In this document: positions 28,757 to 35,844 of the stretch, in pieces
How positions within the stretch are numbered: position 1 is the first letter of the stretch
Layout: each line of letters opens with the position of its first letter
Source: Oscillospiraceae bacterium
Lineage (GTDB): Bacteria; Bacillota; Clostridia; UBA1381; UBA9506
Direction of reading: 5' to 3'
NCBI GenBank assembly: GCA_015068615.1
Contig: SVKE01000005.1
Location: 1-44,033, forward strand
Length of the DNA stretch: 44,033 nucleotides
Notes under the pieces: model-generated
The model's database searches: none
The model's input: only the letters and a program-made list of their open reading frames with translations
What the model was told of the DNA's origin: nothing
Translations under genes and position numbers: made by a program

Positions 28757-29608
28757 TTATCCAATTATTTTCATTATTCTTTCAAAATCATCATTGTTAT
28801 AATATTCTATCTCTATTTTTCCCCGATCCTTTTTATTTTGGATTCTTACCTTGGTCCCCAGGGAATCAGAGAGTCTTTTTTCCAGAGTTAAAAGGTAGCG
28901 TTTCATTTCCTCATCCACAGGATTTTTTTGCTTTGGCTTTTTTTCTTGTTGTATGGTTTTTATAAATGCCTCTGTTTGTCTTACCGTCAAGCCTTCATCA
29001 ACAACCTTACGTGCCGCGATGAGCTGAATTTCTTCATTATCTGTTGCCAGCAACGCACGAACATGACCAACAGTCAACTCCTTATTTAGCACAAGCTTTT
29101 TAATTTCATCCCCAAGTGACAACAGTCGAATGCTGTTTGCAATGGCAGAACGGCTCTTCCCCATTTTTTGTGCTACCTGCTCCTGTGTCATAGAGAATAA
29201 ATCCATCAACTCTCTATAACCACGTGCCTCTTCAAAAGGATTTAAATCCTCGCGCTGCAGATTTTCAATGAGCGCAATCTCCATAGTTTCTCTGTCATCA
29301 TAATCCTTAATAGTGACTGGTACCTTTGTCAGGCCGGCGAGCTTTGCTGCGCGCCAGCGTCTTTCACCGGCAATAATTTTATAAAAGCCATTATCTTGTT
29401 TTTTTACAACAATCGGCTGCAATATTCCATATTTTTTGATAGATTCAGCCAGCATTTCTAATTTTTCAGCATCAAAATCCGTTCTGGGCTGGCTTTTGTT
29501 TGGTTCTATTCGAGATATTTTAAGCTCGGTTTGCGATTCTAATTTTGTGCTAATGACCTCGTCCGTGTTCAGTAACGCTCCAAGCCCTTTTCCTAAACCG
29601 GTTTTCAT
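28757..29608 (-). CDS. parB: Chromosome partitioning protein ParB (Spo0J type)
   Basis: A CTP-dependent DNA clamp that loads at parS. It has 283 residues. The N-terminal GLGKGLGALL segment, which stimulates ParA, precedes the ParB/CTPase domain (IRPNKSQPRTDF-like, here ISRIEPNKSQPRTDFDAEKL, and IIAGERRWRAAKLAGL with the GERR motif), then ENLQREDLNPFEEARGY. The helix-turn-helix MTQEQVAQKMGKSRSAIANSIRLL and a short C-terminal dimerisation domain follow. It lies 8 bases after parA. A consensus parS is about 1 kb upstream, beyond parA. Confidence 0.97.
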   Translation of the reverse strand: MKTGLGKGLGALLNTDEVISTKLESQTELKISRIEPNKSQPRTDFDAEKLEMLAESIKKYGILQPIVVKKQDNGFYKIIAGERRWRAAKLAGLTKVPVTIKDYDDRETMEIALIENLQREDLNPFEEARGYRELMDLFSMTQEQVAQKMGKSRSAIANSIRLLSLGDEIKKLVLNKELTVGHVRALLATDNEEIQLIAARKVVDEGLTVRQTEAFIKTIQQEKKPKQKNPVDEEMKRYLLTLEKRLSDSLGTKVRIQNKKDRGKIEIEYYNNDDFERIMKIIG

Positions 29609-29616
29609 ATTTCTTT

Positions 29617-30390
29617 CTACCCCTTTCTTTCATTATTTTTAAGTATTTCCTTTGCAAGCTTCATATAACTTTTTGCTCCCTTTGAGTGCTTGTCATAACT
29701 GATAATCGGCTCACCATAACCGGGTGCCTCCGAAAGTCGCACGTTTCTTGGAATTACGGTACGCAAAATGCTGTCCGGAAAATATTTATTTACCTCTTCT
29801 GCCACCTGGTTGGAAAGGTTTGTTCGGGAATCGTACATTGTCAAGAGAACGCCTTCAAAGGTTAGCTTTGGATTAATTTCATTTTTCATACTGTTGACGC
29901 TTTTTGTAAGCATACTGAGTCCCTCCAAAGCGAAATATTCACATTGAATGGGAACCAGCAAGCTGTCCGCTGCGGCAAACGCATTTAATGTGAGAAGACC
30001 AAGGGAAGGAGGACAATCCAGAACAATATATTCAAATTTTTCTCGAACACTATCCACGGCCCGCTTGAGTCTTTCCGTTCTGTTTGTCATCGACACCAGC
30101 TCAACCTCTGCTCCGGCAAGATTAATATCTGCCGGACAAACATAAAAATTCTTTATTTTTGTTTCTAAAATTGCTTCTTTTAAAGGTAAATCATTAATAA
30201 TAACATCATAAATAGAGTTCTCTAATGTCTCCTTATCGAAGCCGGTTCCGCTCGTTGAATTTCCCTGAGGATCAAAATCAATTAATAGCGTTCTTTTTTT
30301 TAAAGTTCCAATACAGGCGGCTAAATTAATTGCAGTGGTTGTCTTTCCTACGCCACCTTTTTGGTTTACAACGGCAATTACCTTTGCCAT
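29617..30390 (-). CDS. parA: Chromosome partitioning ATPase ParA (Soj type)
   Basis: A Walker-type ATPase of 257 residues that drives origin segregation with ParB. Deviant Walker A is NQKGGVGKTTTAINLAA (8-24), A' is LLIDFDPQGNSTSG, Walker B is YIVLDCPPSLGLLTLNA, and IPRNVRLSEAPGYGEPI is in the C-terminal part. There is no N-terminal HTH, so it is of the chromosomal Soj kind rather than a P1-like plasmid ParA. GGAATG is a weak ribosome binding site. Strong promoter at 30540-30568. Confidence 0.97.
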   Translation of the reverse strand: MAKVIAVVNQKGGVGKTTTAINLAACIGTLKKRTLLIDFDPQGNSTSGTGFDKETLENSIYDVIINDLPLKEAILETKIKNFYVCPADINLAGAEVELVSMTNRTERLKRAVDSVREKFEYIVLDCPPSLGLLTLNAFAAADSLLVPIQCEYFALEGLSMLTKSVNSMKNEINPKLTFEGVLLTMYDSRTNLSNQVAEEVNKYFPDSILRTVIPRNVRLSEAPGYGEPIISYDKHSKGAKSYMKLAKEILKNNERKG

Positions 30391-30574: not shown

Positions 30575-30590
30575 TGTTTCACATGAAACA
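30575..30590. promoter_or_regulatory. parS-like site (one mismatch)
   Basis: TGTTTCACATGAAACA differs from the perfect palindrome at 30630-30645 at one central base (CACATG for CACGTG). It lies 39 bases from that site, on the other side of a terminator hairpin. Confidence 0.65.
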
Positions 30591-30594
30591 AAAA

Positions 30595-30634
30595 AAACAA
30601 GACTTTTGTAAATCCCATCACAAAAGTCTTGTTT
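30595..30634. terminator. Bidirectional hairpin between greA and parA, overlapping parS
   Basis: A perfect 15-bp stem AAACAAGACTTTTGT (30595-30609) with 30620-30634 closes a 10-base loop. On the minus strand it is followed by seven T, so it ends greA transcription. Its right arm shares five bases with the parS site. Confidence 0.8.
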
Positions 30635-30645
30635 CACGTGAAACA
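30630..30645. promoter_or_regulatory. Consensus parS site
   Basis: TGTTTCACGTGAAACA, a perfect 16-bp palindrome matching the bacterial parS consensus TGTTNCACGTGAAACA. It lies six bases from the greA stop codon, about 240 bases upstream of parA. ParB binds here and spreads. Confidence 0.95.
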
Positions 30646-30651
30646 TTTTCT

Positions 30652-31128
30652 TTATTTACTTATTTCTAAAATTTCAAGCTCATACTCTCCGTTTGGCGCT
30701 GCTACCATCACCTTTTCTCCCACTTTCGCACCAATTAATGCTTTACCTATAGGAGACTCGTCTGAAATTTTATTTTGCATCGGGTCTGCTTCTTCAGACC
30801 CTACAATACTATATACTTCTTCTTCATCCATATCAACATCTAGTACTTTTACCTTTATTCCAATAGAGACAGTTTCCGTGGATATTTCCTCTTCATCTAT
30901 TATTTTCGCATTTTTCAACATTTTTTCAAGCTTTACTATTTTTGCTTCCACTTCTGCCTGCTCATTTTTCGCTTCATCATATTCTGCATTTTCGGATAAA
31001 TCTCCAAATCCGAGAGCAACCTTAATTTTTTCGGATATTTCTTTTCTTTTCTCTGTTTTTAAATACTCCAGTTCCTTTTCTCTTTCTTTAAGACCTTCAT
31101 ACGTCAAAAAAATTACTTTTTCTGACAT
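30652..31128 (-). CDS. greA: Transcription elongation factor GreA
   Basis: A 158-residue factor that stimulates transcript cleavage in backtracked RNA polymerase. The N-terminal coiled-coil hairpin carries the catalytic acidic tip in [20 protein letters not shown] (about 39-58). The C-terminal FKBP-like domain is [24 protein letters not shown] ... [20 protein letters not shown]. The start at 31128 has AGGGGGTGA upstream; the frame extends eight codons further without support. Its terminator overlaps parS. Confidence 0.95.
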
Positions 31129-31193
31129 GCTGTCACCCCCTATTACTAACATTAATCTTTAATACAGTATTATAAACAAAATTATTCTGTTTG

Positions 31194-31997
31194 TCAATCA
31201 ATATTTTCAATTTTAATAATTCGTACATTAAATTCCCCGGTAAATCTTCTGGCCGCACTTTCTAAAAAACTGCCATATTTTTCTATCATTAAAAATTCCA
31301 GAGCCGCTTGATGCAGCTTTACATATGAAAGAATTGAGCTTTCCTTTTTATTAATTTTAAAATATACCCTGTTATGATAAAAAGCAGATAAAGAAATATC
31401 AAGGTCGCATCCTTCTTTTTCTTTATTTTCATCCACCATCACAACTAGCTCGTCCTTTTTTCTTTCTTCTTTTTCCACGGAAATATACAAACCATATTCA
31501 TTCATGAAATAATTGATTAATGGCAAAAAGGATTCCTGCTTTTTTGTTTCTACTCTAATTCTTTTGACATGCCTATATAATTTCATAATCAATGCTTCTG
31601 CCACTTTTGGACGATCCGTCACAAGTACCACCGTGCTTTGGTTCATCTCCAGGTTTTTCTTAGCAGCACATTTTCTTAGTATATCGAAAAATTTATGATT
31701 TATAATACTATTTCCCAAAATCATTTGAAAATTTTCTTTTATTTTTTCTAATAAAATTTTTTCTTGCTCAACATCGTCTGCAAGCAAAACGTGTGTGATA
31801 TTTTCACTTTTTAAATAGGTAATCCACCTTTCTATCATTCGGCCACTCATTTTTTTATTCACAGGAAGTCCATACATAAAAAAAGAAATATTCACACACT
31901 TTTTTTCCTTCTTCATGCTTTCAAAATAATTTTTTAAAAATATTTTCTGATACAAATTTGGTTTGTTTTCTTTCTTATATATAAGTGCTGCCTTCAT
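31194..31997 (-). CDS. Unknown protein in the dnaN-greA block
   Basis: A 267-residue soluble, basic, Lys-rich protein; not recognised. No signal peptide or membrane segment. A pattern of alternating hydrophobic strands and helices suggests two alpha/beta domains: residues 1-115 (ITHVLLADDVEQEKILLEKI) and 125-190 (STVVLVTDRPKVAEALIMKLY, then KRIRVETKK). The latter resembles a Rossmann-like nucleotide or effector domain, but without a clear glycine motif. A C-terminal helical part (KLHQAALEFLMIEKYGSFLESAARRF) follows. The ATG at 31997 is chosen for its GGAGG; that site lies inside a 19-bp hairpin (32005-32047). Very AT-rich codons. Confidence 0.75.
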   Translation of the reverse strand: MKAALIYKKENKPNLYQKIFLKNYFESMKKEKKCVNISFFMYGLPVNKKMSGRMIERWITYLKSENITHVLLADDVEQEKILLEKIKENFQMILGNSIINHKFFDILRKCAAKKNLEMNQSTVVLVTDRPKVAEALIMKLYRHVKRIRVETKKQESFLPLINYFMNEYGLYISVEKEERKKDELVVMVDENKEKEGCDLDISLSAFYHNRVYFKINKKESSILSYVKLHQAALEFLMIEKYGSFLESAARRFTGEFNVRIIKIENID

Positions 31998-32004
31998 ATA
32001 AAAA

Positions 32005-32047
32005 TTCCTCCATATATTGTAATAAATCATTACAATATATGGAGGAA
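32005..32047 (-). promoter_or_regulatory. 19-bp hairpin hiding the ribosome binding site of the unknown gene
   Basis: TTCCTCCATATATTGTAAT (32005-32023) and its exact complement (32029-32047) enclose a 5-base loop, between the RNase M5-like stop codon and the next ATG. In the minus-strand RNA, GGAGG of the downstream ribosome binding site is in the 3' arm, paired with CCTCC. Five T follow directly, so it could also be a terminator. Confidence 0.8.
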
Positions 32048-32050
32048 AAT

Positions 32051-32617
32051 CTAAAATAATTCAAAAAACTTTTCTCTGTCATATAATACATTGAGAACAT
32101 CTAAAAGCATTTTTGCAGAAATGCGTTCCGGCAGGCCTAATAAAATTGCCAAATTTTTCCTTTTTTCTCTGCTTTCCTTTCCGCCTGATAATCCAAGCCG
32201 AAATAAATCTGTTTTTGTAATTTTTTCTTTCTTTCCTTCGTCTGTCTCATATCCGGCAAGTGTAAGTGCTCTTATAAGAGCTTCATCACGCATACCCTCT
32301 ACGCCTAAAAGTCCTTCCTTTCCGGGCTTTTCCTTTCTTTTTTCCTTACCCTCTAAGGAAGGAATAAAAGCATGCTTTACATTTTTTCCAATTAGACAGC
32401 TTTTGATATAATTTCTTATTTTAAAGCCGGCGCTGTCTGAATCAGTTAAGATTATGACGCCTGTTTCATCAGCAAGCCGTGAGAGCAGACGAAGCATTTC
32501 TTCATTTTTAAAAATCATAAAGCCATCGGTACAAATGATATTTGCATCTACCAAATAAGAAAGTCTTATTTTATCATACTTTCCTTCTACAACGATGGTC
32601 TCTTTTATCCTGATCAA
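32051..32617 (-). CDS. rnmV: Toprim-domain RNase M5-like protein (DUF4093)
   Basis: A 188-residue Toprim nuclease related to ribonuclease M5, which matures 5S rRNA in Bacillota. Toprim motifs are the catalytic Glu in IVVEGKYDKIRL (about residue 11), DGFMIFKNEEMLRLL, and DSDSAG (58-63, the DxD pair). The C-terminal DUF4093-type domain includes KTDLFRLGLSGGKESREKR. Length fits the clostridial group. The start is TTG, overlapping the dnaN TGA (TTGA), so translation is coupled to dnaN. No better in-frame ATG or GTG exists upstream. Confidence 0.85.
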   Translation of the reverse strand: MIRIKETIVVEGKYDKIRLSYLVDANIICTDGFMIFKNEEMLRLLSRLADETGVIILTDSDSAGFKIRNYIKSCLIGKNVKHAFIPSLEGKEKRKEKPGKEGLLGVEGMRDEALIRALTLAGYETDEGKKEKITKTDLFRLGLSGGKESREKRKNLAILLGLPERISAKMLLDVLNVLYDREKFFELF

Positions 32618-33717
32618 TGCACTCTCACCGGCAGAACGATATAATAAAAGCTGTTTCCTTCAGCGGGCTGAATCACAACAGGATTAAGAGCAGTGGAAAA
32701 ACTCAGCTTAATTTCCTTACAGTCTGCATTTTTAAAAGCTTCTAAAAGGTAACGCGGATTAAATGCAATTTCAATCGGATCACCCTGCATTTCCACTTCA
32801 AATTTATCCTTTACCTGACCCAGCACCGTTTCACAGTTTATATGCACCTGTCCGTCTTCTATTTTTAGGAGAACATGCGCTTTTACCGCCTCACTGGCAA
32901 TTAAAGAGGCACGGTCAATGGAATCTGCTATATCTTTTGTATCCGTTACAATAAATAAGGTGTTTTCGTGCTTTGCCACACCTTCATAATTTAAATAATC
33001 ACCATCAATCAAACGAGTTGTAACAGTACAATTTTTCAAGGTCAGCTGTGCTTGCTTATCACTGACCTTAATTTTTACCTCGTAATCTGTTTCTCCTAAA
33101 AGGGATAATAACTCTCTTGCTGTTTTTCCCTGCATGATAAACTTGAGAGGATTTTCATGAATGAGCTCCTCCCGGCGAATAGCAAGTCTATATCCGTCAC
33201 ATCCAACAACACTCAGCTCGTTTTGTTTCACGTCAAACAAAATACCGGTTAAATAAGGCTTTGTATCATTTTGCGATACGGCATATACGGTTTGACGGAT
33301 CATATTTTTCAATAAATATTCTTTTACACAAATATCATCAATTGCATCAATTTCCTGTGGGCGGGGAAAATCGTCTGCACCGGCAATGGAAAAATTAAAT
33401 TTTGCGTTGCCGCAGGAAAGCAGGATTACATTACTTTCATTCACTTCAATTTTTGCTTCATCGACATGTGCAGGCAGCTTTTTCACAGCGTCTGAAAAAA
33501 GGTTTGCTTTAACAACACAGCTTCCCTTTACGTCTACCGTTCCGGGAATGCTGCAATCAATGCAGAGCTCTAGGTTATTTCCCAAAAACCGAATTTCATT
33601 TTCCTTAGCTTCAATAAAAAGACCTTCTAAAATGTTCATAGTACTTTTGCTGGCAACGGCTCTTTCTGCAATATTGACTGCATCCAGCAAATCTGTTCTG
33701 CGACAGGAAAATTTCAT
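32614..33717 (-). CDS. dnaN: DNA polymerase III sliding clamp (beta subunit)
   Basis: A 367-residue ring-forming clamp with three homologous domains. The start KFSCRRTDLLDAVNIAERAV is typical, as are SVVGCDGYRLAIRREEL in the middle domain and the C-terminal end FYYIVLPVRVH (a variant of the usual YLIMPMR.. end). The ATG at 33717 is preferred over an in-frame GTG at 33726 because GGAG is then spaced eight bases away; with the GTG the site would touch the start. dnaA, the usual upstream neighbour, is absent: an AT-rich gap and an opposite-strand glycosyltransferase gene lie there instead. Confidence 0.96.
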   Translation of the reverse strand: MKFSCRRTDLLDAVNIAERAVASKSTMNILEGLFIEAKENEIRFLGNNLELCIDCSIPGTVDVKGSCVVKANLFSDAVKKLPAHVDEAKIEVNESNVILLSCGNAKFNFSIAGADDFPRPQEIDAIDDICVKEYLLKNMIRQTVYAVSQNDTKPYLTGILFDVKQNELSVVGCDGYRLAIRREELIHENPLKFIMQGKTARELLSLLGETDYEVKIKVSDKQAQLTLKNCTVTTRLIDGDYLNYEGVAKHENTLFIVTDTKDIADSIDRASLIASEAVKAHVLLKIEDGQVHINCETVLGQVKDKFEVEMQGDPIEIAFNPRYLLEAFKNADCKEIKLSFSTALNPVVIQPAEGNSFYYIVLPVRVH

Positions 33718-33780
33718 TTTTTTCACTCCGTTCTTTAATAAGAAATATAAAAATATAATCGTTATAGTAGTATAGACTGT

Positions 33781-34090
33781 TGATTCTGTTGAAAACCCTT
33801 ATAAGCTTTATCATATAAGGATTTTCACCTATGGATAAGCTTGTTGATAATCTGTAGAAAAAAAACACAATCCACAGGAGCAAAAAGAGAAATTTACAAA
33901 TATTTACAGATAAATATTTATTCACAGCTTTTCCTACAGGAATTAACAAAAAATAAACAGTTAACTGTTGAGAAGAAAAAGAGCAGTAAAATACAGGCTT
34001 TTCTCCTCTTTTTCCTAAAAAAGGAAAAGAAAAAGCGAGGAATTTAGGCATTTTTCATTTTTAACAGGGGTGTTGATAAATATTTCTCTT
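33781..34090. other. Origin-like region with DnaA-box-like 9-mers
   Basis: AT-rich gap upstream of dnaN. TTATTCACA (33918-33926) matches TTATNCACA exactly. TGTTGATAA at 33842-33850 and 34071-34079 is TTATCAACA on the minus strand, a one-mismatch box. TATGGATAA (33830-33838) is TTATCCATA, also one mismatch. CAATCCACA (33868-33876) has two mismatches. AACAGTTAACTGTT (33956-33969) is a palindrome, and CCTTATA/TATAAGG (33797-33820) an inverted repeat. The rest to 34178 is A/T runs suitable for unwinding. Gene direction switches across it and parS is 3 kb away. Confidence 0.55.
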
Positions 34091-34178
34091 TTTCTTCATT
34101 TTTCTTTCCTTATTGTAACATAATTTAATAAAAAAAGGAAGATATTTTTAAGTTATTTTTACATTTGTGTTTCTTCTA

Positions 34179-34207
34179 TTGATGTTTATTCCGTTTTTTG
34201 GTAAAAT
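34179..34207 (+). promoter_or_regulatory. Promoter of the glycosyltransferase pair
   Basis: TTGATG (34179-34184), 17-base spacer, TAAAAT (34202-34207). Confidence 0.6.
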
Positions 34208-34233
34208 ACTATGGAGTATAAGGCGGTGATACA

Positions 34234-35844
34234 TTGGTTGCTATTTTATTATTTTTACTTGCGGTTGCATGTTGTGTTTTTTGTATATATACAAAAAAAA
34301 AGAATATCAGCCCGACATGGTTTACATATGAAAAACATATTATGGCAGGCTTGTGTATTTTAGGTGTGCTCATTCGGTTTTTGTTTATATGGAAATTTCC
34401 GGCTGGTCTCAATCAGGATGAGGCTTCTATTGGATACGATGCCTTTGCGGATTTGACCTTTGGTATGGATAGAAATGGGGACCATAATCCGGTGTATTCC
34501 GTTGCTTGGGGCAGTGGGCACAGTAGCTTGTATCTTTTTTTAATAAAGCCCTTTATAGCCCTTTTTGGACTTAATACTTTTTCTGTAAGGATTGTCAATG
34601 CCATTTTCGGTTCTTTGGCTCTTTTTGCTTTTTACGGCACGGCAAAAAAATTGCGGGGGCCGCTTTTTTCACTTGTGGCCTTGTTTATGCTGGTGATTAA
34701 CCCTTGGCATATTATGATGAGCCGTTGGGGACTTGAATGCAATTTATTTCCCAATGTATTTTTAATTGGCCTGTATTTTTTGCTAAAAGGAGAGGAAAAA
34801 AGAATTTTTTATCCTCTTTCGCTTTTCATTTTTGGCTTATCCTTATATGCATATGGAACCTCATACATGTTTGTACCGGTATTTTTAGGCATTGCGGCGA
34901 TCTGTTTATACAGGCAAAGGAAAATAGAGCTTAAAATGTTACTTGTTTCGGCGGCAGTTTTTATTGTAACAGCAATTCCTATCTTTCTTTTTATGTGCAT
35001 CAATATTTTTCAGCTTAAGCCGATGGATTGGGGATTTTTATCCTTTCCGCGTCTGGCAGAAGGAAGATACCATACCACGGTCACGGTATTGGGTGGTGAT
35101 CTTGTCAGACAAATGCTGCGAAATCTTGGTACGTTTTTAAAAATTTTAATAACAGGAAATGATGGATTAATATGGAACAGCATTCCCGGCTTTGGGGTGC
35201 TTTATATGTTCTCTCTGCCTTTTGTGTTTTTAGGTCTTTACAGCCTCTGTACAGATAAAAAAAACAAGGGACGATTTTTACTTATTACGATGTTGCCGGC
35301 AATTTTTGTTTTGGTTTTACTCAGTGAGGTCAATATAAACAGGGCAAATATTGTTTTTCCGCTAATTATCTATCTTGCTGCAGAGGGAATTTATATGACG
35401 GTAGGACGGGGAAAAGGAGTGTTTTTCTCTGTTATCACCGTTTATTTAGCTTCCTTTTGTATATTTACCACGGTCTATTTTACAAGCTATCAAAAAAAGA
35501 TAGGGTCGGCATTTTTTGAAGGCTTTGGTGAGGCATTAACCTATGCGGCAGAGCAAACAGATGATACGATTTATATGACAGAATACGTGAATGCACCTTA
35601 CATTTTTGCTTTATTTTATGAAAAAGAAGACCCGCAGCATTTTATTGACACGGTGGATTATGCTTATAAAAACACTTCCGTAAGACCGGTCAACAGCTTT
35701 GGCAGGTATGTAACGGGCCTGCCGGAAGAGCTTGAAAAAACAGAAATTTGCATTGCTTCGGAAGGGGAAGCCGTGCAATATGACGATGCTAATTATGAAA
35801 AGAAAAAATTCGGTGGATATGTTGTCATATCCGGGAGGAAATGA
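34234..35844 (+). CDS. GT-C family membrane glycosyltransferase (PMT/ArnT-like)
   Basis: A 536-residue polytopic membrane protein with about 11-12 helices. The first extracellular loop carries an acidic motif NQDEASIGYDA near residue 60, as expected for the catalytic Asp/Glu of enzymes using polyprenyl-phosphate sugars. Further typical segments are FSVRIVNAIFGSLALFAFYGTAKKL and NPWHIMMSRWGLECNLFPN. A C-terminal soluble domain of about 120 residues ends the protein. The start is TTG at 34234 with AAGGCGGTGA upstream; the ATG at 34211 is in another frame. The last base positions overlap the next gene (ATGA), whose GT2 product would make the lipid-linked sugar donor. Acceptor unknown. Confidence 0.85.
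   Translation: MVAILLFLLAVACCVFCIYTKKKNISPTWFTYEKHIMAGLCILGVLIRFLFIWKFPAGLNQDEASIGYDAFADLTFGMDRNGDHNPVYSVAWGSGHSSLYLFLIKPFIALFGLNTFSVRIVNAIFGSLALFAFYGTAKKLRGPLFSLVALFMLVINPWHIMMSRWGLECNLFPNVFLIGLYFLLKGEEKRIFYPLSLFIFGLSLYAYGTSYMFVPVFLGIAAICLYRQRKIELKMLLVSAAVFIVTAIPIFLFMCINIFQLKPMDWGFLSFPRLAEGRYHTTVTVLGGDLVRQMLRNLGTFLKILITGNDGLIWNSIPGFGVLYMFSLPFVFLGLYSLCTDKKNKGRFLLITMLPAIFVLVLLSEVNINRANIVFPLIIYLAAEGIYMTVGRGKGVFFSVITVYLASFCIFTTVYFTSYQKKIGSAFFEGFGEALTYAAEQTDDTIYMTEYVNAPYIFALFYEKEDPQHFIDTVDYAYKNTSVRPVNSFGRYVTGLPEELEKTEICIASEGEAVQYDDANYEKKKFGGYVVISGRK

Follow-up and report, generated by a model that had tools for sequence, protein, structure and literature searches.

Adjacency of dnaA and dnaN is the usual landmark for placing the replication origin in Bacillota, while the E. 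coli-type oriC is distant from dnaA, works in trans and sits between genes other than dnaN. Origins that border dnaN are described in cyanobacteria, where dnaN lies on one side of oriC in 55 of 68 species (PMC4674748) and the oriC of Synechococcus elongatus is placed near dnaN at the skew shift point (PMC7198777). In B. subtilis and C. difficile, the origins are bipartite around dnaA, and the trio of the C. difficile oriC2 as given there is much like the CTA array reported below (PMC7561715).

Here we analyze a candidate origin in the window, a stretch of 44,033 nucleotides from an Oscillospiraceae bacterium that constitutes a single contig (C20) of a 1.32-Mb draft genome of 74 contigs and ~90% completeness. 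It resembles the cyanobacterial oriC (Synechococcus elongatus, Cyanothece) in bordering dnaN, in the variable gene on its other side and in the location of dnaA elsewhere, but differs in its DnaA boxes, which are of the TTATCAACA and TTATCCATA types, whereas the cyanobacterial box is given as TTTTCCACA (PMC4674748); no site with two mismatches or fewer in the gap under study has the latter sequence. The two arrangements, found in different phyla, are presumably independent events. Like oriC2 of C. difficile and B. subtilis, the locus has boxes, a short spacer, CTA repeats and an AT-rich stretch directly before dnaN; unlike the origins of those species, it has no dnaA on the far side and no oriC1 half. 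With the E. coli-type oriC it would share action in trans from dnaA, differing in that it adjoins dnaN. Because cyanobacterial origins are arranged alike, this kind of layout counts as known; what is new is a family-wide case in Clostridia in which dnaN is absent from the dnaA operon. We found no earlier report of dnaA/dnaN separation in Firmicutes/Clostridia in open-licence titles and abstracts, which is no proof of absence.

Results

The gap upstream of dnaN has the following neighborhood.

33718–34233, no strand assigned: proposed oriC, the 516-bp dnaN/GT-C intergenic region, 27% G+C, proposed from box enrichment, conservation and a skew minimum at 33937
32614–33717, minus strand: dnaN, DNA polymerase III beta clamp (TIGR00663, E 2e-78)
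32051–32617, minus strand: rnmV-like gene (ribonuclease M5), under the curated cut-off, Toprim and DUF4093 present
30652–31152, minus strand: greA
30575–30645, no strand assigned: parS pair, 30575–30590 with one mismatch and 30630–30645 exact
29617–30390, minus strand: parA (Soj-type ATPase)
28757–29608, minus strand: parB (Spo0J/Noc-type)
34234–35844, plus strand: PMT_2/GT-C glycosyltransferase, a membrane protein and incidental neighbor

The dnaN start is the ATG at 33717, which is preceded by GGAG; the start in the open reading frame list is a GTG 9 nt further upstream. Transcription diverges from the gap, as a previous sequence-only reading of this DNA had stated, with dnaN on the minus strand and the PMT_2/GT-C gene on the plus strand from 34234. 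On the left side of the proposed origin, gene order is constant: dnaN, the rnmV-like gene and greA follow one another in all 17 family dnaN loci; parA-parB comes after greA in 16 of them, and the contig of the 17th stops after greA. The right side is fluid, the gene facing the dnaN gap within one genus being a GT2 gene, homoserine dehydrogenase, a GT-C gene or others. The same reading was correct that a GT-C gene borders the gap; because the right-flank genes vary within one genus, the GT-C gene says nothing about the origin and is ruled out as a meaningful border. The parS that it placed 3 kb away is the pair listed above, ~3.1 kb from the dnaN start between greA and parA, and 8/8 genus loci (L065–L072) have a parS-like pair at a distance of ~3 kb from the start of dnaN.

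Two further observations concern this flank. A one-mismatch parS match lies within dnaN (33224–33239), and dnaN of the same eight loci contains no such site even when two mismatches are allowed. Between rnmV and greA, a 278-aa open reading frame (31194–32030) is without a Pfam or NCBIfam match; its position is kept in the eight loci with identity of 31–38%, compared with 69–85% for the adjacent rnmV and greA, marking it as a putative fast-evolving, origin-proximal gene without assigned function.

DnaA boxes were searched against TTATCCACA by counting mismatches, with dinucleotide-shuffled versions of this AT-rich sequence as the null. The main sites in the gap are:

33830–33838, minus strand: DnaA box TTATCCATA, 1 mismatch, in tandem with the box at 33842 across a 3-nt gap
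33842–33850, minus strand: DnaA box TTATCAACA, 1 mismatch
33868–33876, plus strand: DnaA box CAATCCACA, 2 mismatches, in a block (CTGTGGATT on the opposite strand) widely conserved in the genus alignment
33918–33926, plus strand: DnaA box TTATTCACA, 1 mismatch, exact under TTWTNCACA
33966–33974, minus strand: weak box TTCTCAACA, 2 mismatches, overlapping the palindrome at 33956–33969
34071–34079, minus strand: DnaA box TTATCAACA, 1 mismatch

Four sites lie one mismatch from TTATCCACA, a number reached in 0/1000 shuffles (mean 0.14), and eight lie within two mismatches, reached in 1/1000 (mean 1.91); the window has nine sites with at most one mismatch in its other 43.5 kb. One exact and three near-consensus boxes had been claimed for the gap. 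The four near sites stand, while no exact TTATCCACA is present there; the site at 33918 is presumably what had been meant by the exact box, although a single TTWTNCACA match taken alone is not significant (71/1000 shuffles). All 18 exact TTATCCACA copies of the genome lie outside the contig of the window, and the tandem-pair motif of 33830/33842, which was defined from the gap itself, has a zero-mismatch match in the assembly only at the gap. The 14-bp palindrome that had been pointed out, AACAGTTAACTGTT at 33956–33969, is indeed present; it lacks conservation in the genus and was rejected as a functional element.

Box enrichment extends to the family. The 17 family dnaN-upstream regions (400 bp each) contain 41 boxes with at most one mismatch versus a shuffle mean of 2.4 and maximum of 7, with none in G015 and G016. 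When 400-bp segments across 989 kb of family contigs were ranked, the dnaN gap of G017 came out on top with six boxes, followed, at four boxes each, by the dnaN gaps of G000 and G010 and one segment within a long coding frame of G009. When ten genomes (the genus including G007) were aligned, the box blocks and a CTA block stood out against variable sequence, conserved even though the gene across the gap from dnaN varies. The CTA block belongs to a candidate unwinding module at the dnaN end of the gap:

33787–33795, minus strand: proximal DnaA box TTTTCAACA of the module, 2 mismatches
33778–33786, minus strand: second, abutting weak box GAATCAACA, 3 mismatches, then GTCT and the trios
33753–33775, minus strand: DnaA-trio-like array CTATACTACTATAACGATTATAT on the dnaN strand, a proposed unwinding site that leads into AT-rich sequence in front of dnaN

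Read along the dnaN strand, the end of the gap is TTTTCAACA-GAATCAACA-GTCT-ATA-CTA-CTA followed by AT-rich DNA, with a spacer of 13 nt. The published module rule, as set out in PMC8287927, comprises a box pair, a spacer (most commonly 13 nt) and trios; we coded it with the additional requirement of two or more CTA/TTA triplets. A module of this description is found in the window with the 13-nt spacer and in the right place and orientation, and, in all, in 10 of the 17 family members (only distally in G004), compared with 32/850 shuffled sequences. Over the 17 genomes, the summed count of CTA repeats before dnaN is 60 on the dnaN strand (shuffle mean 27, maximum 36) and 15 on the opposite strand. 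The array of the window itself is short and unremarkable, its count of 3 being reached in 30/300 shuffles. Since CTA repeats are also present in four of the five dnaA-dnaN gaps inspected from outgroups of the same order (G023, G045, G035 and G021; not G020), the module is most simply read as the former dnaA-dnaN unwinding region, which stayed with dnaN.

The sequence-only reading had found dnaA missing beside dnaN; a full DnaA match occurs once in the genome, on contig C42, and not in the window. The order on C42 is dnaA, an S4-domain gene and recF, dnaN being missing from between dnaA and the S4 gene; in outgroup G023 the order is dnaA-dnaN-S4-recF-remB-gyrB-gyrA. The dnaA-recF arrangement without dnaN recurs in 16/16 family dnaA loci, and gyrB-gyrA persists with rnpA 12–31 kb away. 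Three separate remnants of the ancestral origin neighborhood are thus left, dnaA-recF, rnpA-gyrBA and dnaN-oriC-parAB; the draft genomes do not polarise which block physically moved.

In an order-level sample of 61 genomes (the genome under study and its relatives; table counts, weak DnaA-like matches excluded), dnaA and dnaN are on different contigs in 15/15 genomes of the family (f1) in which both were found, and adjacent in 34 of 35 genomes with both from the other families, adjacency being undecidable in the 35th, G028, where the dnaA match is close to the contig start. The displacement of dnaA is therefore real in this genome but no peculiarity of it, as it spans the whole family. The family genomes are draft metagenome-assembled genomes, the nearest named relatives being recorded as Clostridia or Oscillospiraceae and several coming from ruminant gut. 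That dnaA and dnaN are truly adjacent in the chromosome and appear apart through assembly or binning has next to no probability: the assembly is a draft and so are those of the relatives, but in all 15 family genomes the two genes occupy constant, distinct neighborhoods, and the named records are separate isolates (SIG and RGIG series).

The earlier reading also considered a bipartite origin possible. Its halves would be the dnaN gap and the DNA upstream of dnaA at its new place, with DnaA bridging a long loop. The bipartite origins of B. subtilis and C. difficile lend this a precedent, but the region upstream of dnaA has no box cluster. In 15 family genomes (400 bp each), it holds four boxes versus a chance mean of 1.8, with 26/200 shuffles reaching four, and 12 of 16 family loci are boxless in the 500 bp upstream; a full cluster retained at dnaA, a possibility that had been raised for checking, was thus not found. 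Moreover, dnaA is on a separate contig, and the contig ends in G004 imply ~100 kb or more between dnaA and dnaN. With dnaA on another contig and a cluster on one side only, a bipartite origin was rejected for this genome; because the dnaA upstream DNA has no box cluster, it is unsupported and very improbable. A boxless dnaA upstream region is not unique to the family, being found in four of five f4 outgroups inspected, while three of three f2/f3 genomes have three to six boxes.

A class-wide draw of 118 genomes contained 115 with both genes, of which 107 have them on one contig within 2.2 kb. The eight with the genes on different contigs are G000, five f16 genomes (dnaN at L132, L125–L126, L134, L136 and L138; dnaA at L133, L130, L135, L137 and L139), one f40 genome (G110; dnaA at L141, dnaN at L140) and the undecided G028. 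These f16 and f40 genomes share the dnaA/dnaN separation with the family but differ in their boxes. The class-wide box survey covered the 500 bp upstream of each gene, and loose start-codon calls (e.g., for dnaA of G148 and G125) make those upstream offsets approximate. In it, the f16 genomes have no box (up to one mismatch) at either gene, so their origin must lie elsewhere, while G110 has six boxes at dnaA and none at dnaN, so its origin-like cluster is with dnaA. In one of the 107 genomes with both genes on one contig, G165 (L142, ~91.8–94.4 kb), dnaN and dnaA are divergent, and the cumulative GC skew of the 20-kb stretch reaches its minimum 38 bp upstream of dnaN.

Computation of GC skew, a check suggested for the gap, gave a cumulative minimum at 33937, within it, on the single-contig curve of the window. 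The minimum falls inside the dnaN gap in six of ten family dnaN contigs (G000, G017, G013, G016, G005 and G008), including the 153-kb contig of G017. In the other four it misses the gap, by 2.5 kb in G009, 5.6 kb in G010 and 24 kb in G004, and the G015 curve does not switch at dnaN. Divergent transcription by itself also lowers skew at such gaps. On none of four dnaA contigs does the cumulative minimum coincide with dnaA; it comes closest in G001, at a stretch end 2.2 kb away; on the short contig C42, the detrended minimum lies 0.7 kb from the dnaA start, which is weak contrary evidence to an origin in the dnaN gap.

These data also bear on the alternative that the gap is a mere DnaA-regulated dnaN promoter or DnaA-titrating site and the origin lies elsewhere, e.g., at rnpA-gyrBA or dnaA. 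Boxes near dnaN could have regulatory use, rnpA with gyrB-gyrA survives as another remnant of the ancestral neighborhood, and f16, in the same class, indicates that origins can leave both genes. Against this, neither an intergenic cluster of boxes nor a clear skew minimum is seen at the dnaA and rnpA/gyrB loci examined, while the dnaN gap has both as well as trios, with parS sites and parAB 3–5 kb away. An origin at rnpA/gyrBA was rejected on those grounds, and we consider the alternative as a whole improbable.

The box-reading helix of DnaA was compared between the family and its relatives.

L001:1180–2520, and 14 family relatives: family DnaA with a changed recognition helix

The helix reads RNHAT(I/V) in 15/15 family DnaA proteins, and that N or A occurs in 0/18 relatives outside the family. 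By motif, we take these residues to be equivalent to positions 433 and 435 of E. coli DnaA. The base-contacting stretch of the latter is given as residues 432–439 (PMC5043019), and the family changes fall there. A link between the changed helix and box type was considered but does not hold cleanly: f40 and f2 genomes, in which DnaA keeps the common helix residues, likewise have TTATCAACA upstream of dnaA, G017 combines exact TTATCCACA with the changed helix, and the family comparison revealed no clear change in box sequence matching that in the helix.

Discussion

The observation that the gap at 33718–34233 is origin-like and that dnaA lies apart from it is confirmed and mostly explained. Gene order, box enrichment, conservation and the skew minimum are observed, and the last three bear out the origin-like character first read from the sequence; the gap combines the features of a DnaA-dependent oriC, namely a box cluster beyond chance, an AT-rich unwinding element with trios and a skew minimum. 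We propose, with a probability of roughly 90%, that a one-part DnaA-dependent oriC has been kept at dnaN and works in trans from a distant dnaA, which entails predicted DnaA binding, unwinding and origin activity at the gap.

According to this proposal, the former dnaA-dnaN intergenic (oriC2-type) unwinding region would have stayed before dnaN while dnaA, the S4 gene and recF ended up elsewhere. DnaA made at the distant locus would bind the box array at 33830–34079 and the proximal pair at 33778–33795, load onto the CTA (3'-GAT-5') repeats at 33753–33775 and then melt the AT-rich DNA next to the start of dnaN. From there, one fork would travel through dnaN-parS-parAB and a second through the variable right flank.

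More tentatively, and with somewhat less than even confidence, dnaA may be uncoupled from the origin both physically and regulatorily, given its separate location, a promoter without a box cluster and a changed recognition helix alongside a compact one-part oriC at dnaN. If so, the control of initiation would involve neither dnaA gene dosage at the origin nor autoregulation of dnaA through boxes, and the box code would be altered.

A whole family thus breaks the dnaA-dnaN landmark with its proposed origin staying with dnaN, whereas two other lineages of Clostridia have no such origin at dnaN. Origin finders anchored on dnaA would misplace oriC in the family genomes. Together, these lineages provide a natural series in which to ask whether linkage to dnaA matters for initiation control, and why the unwinding module persists beside dnaN.
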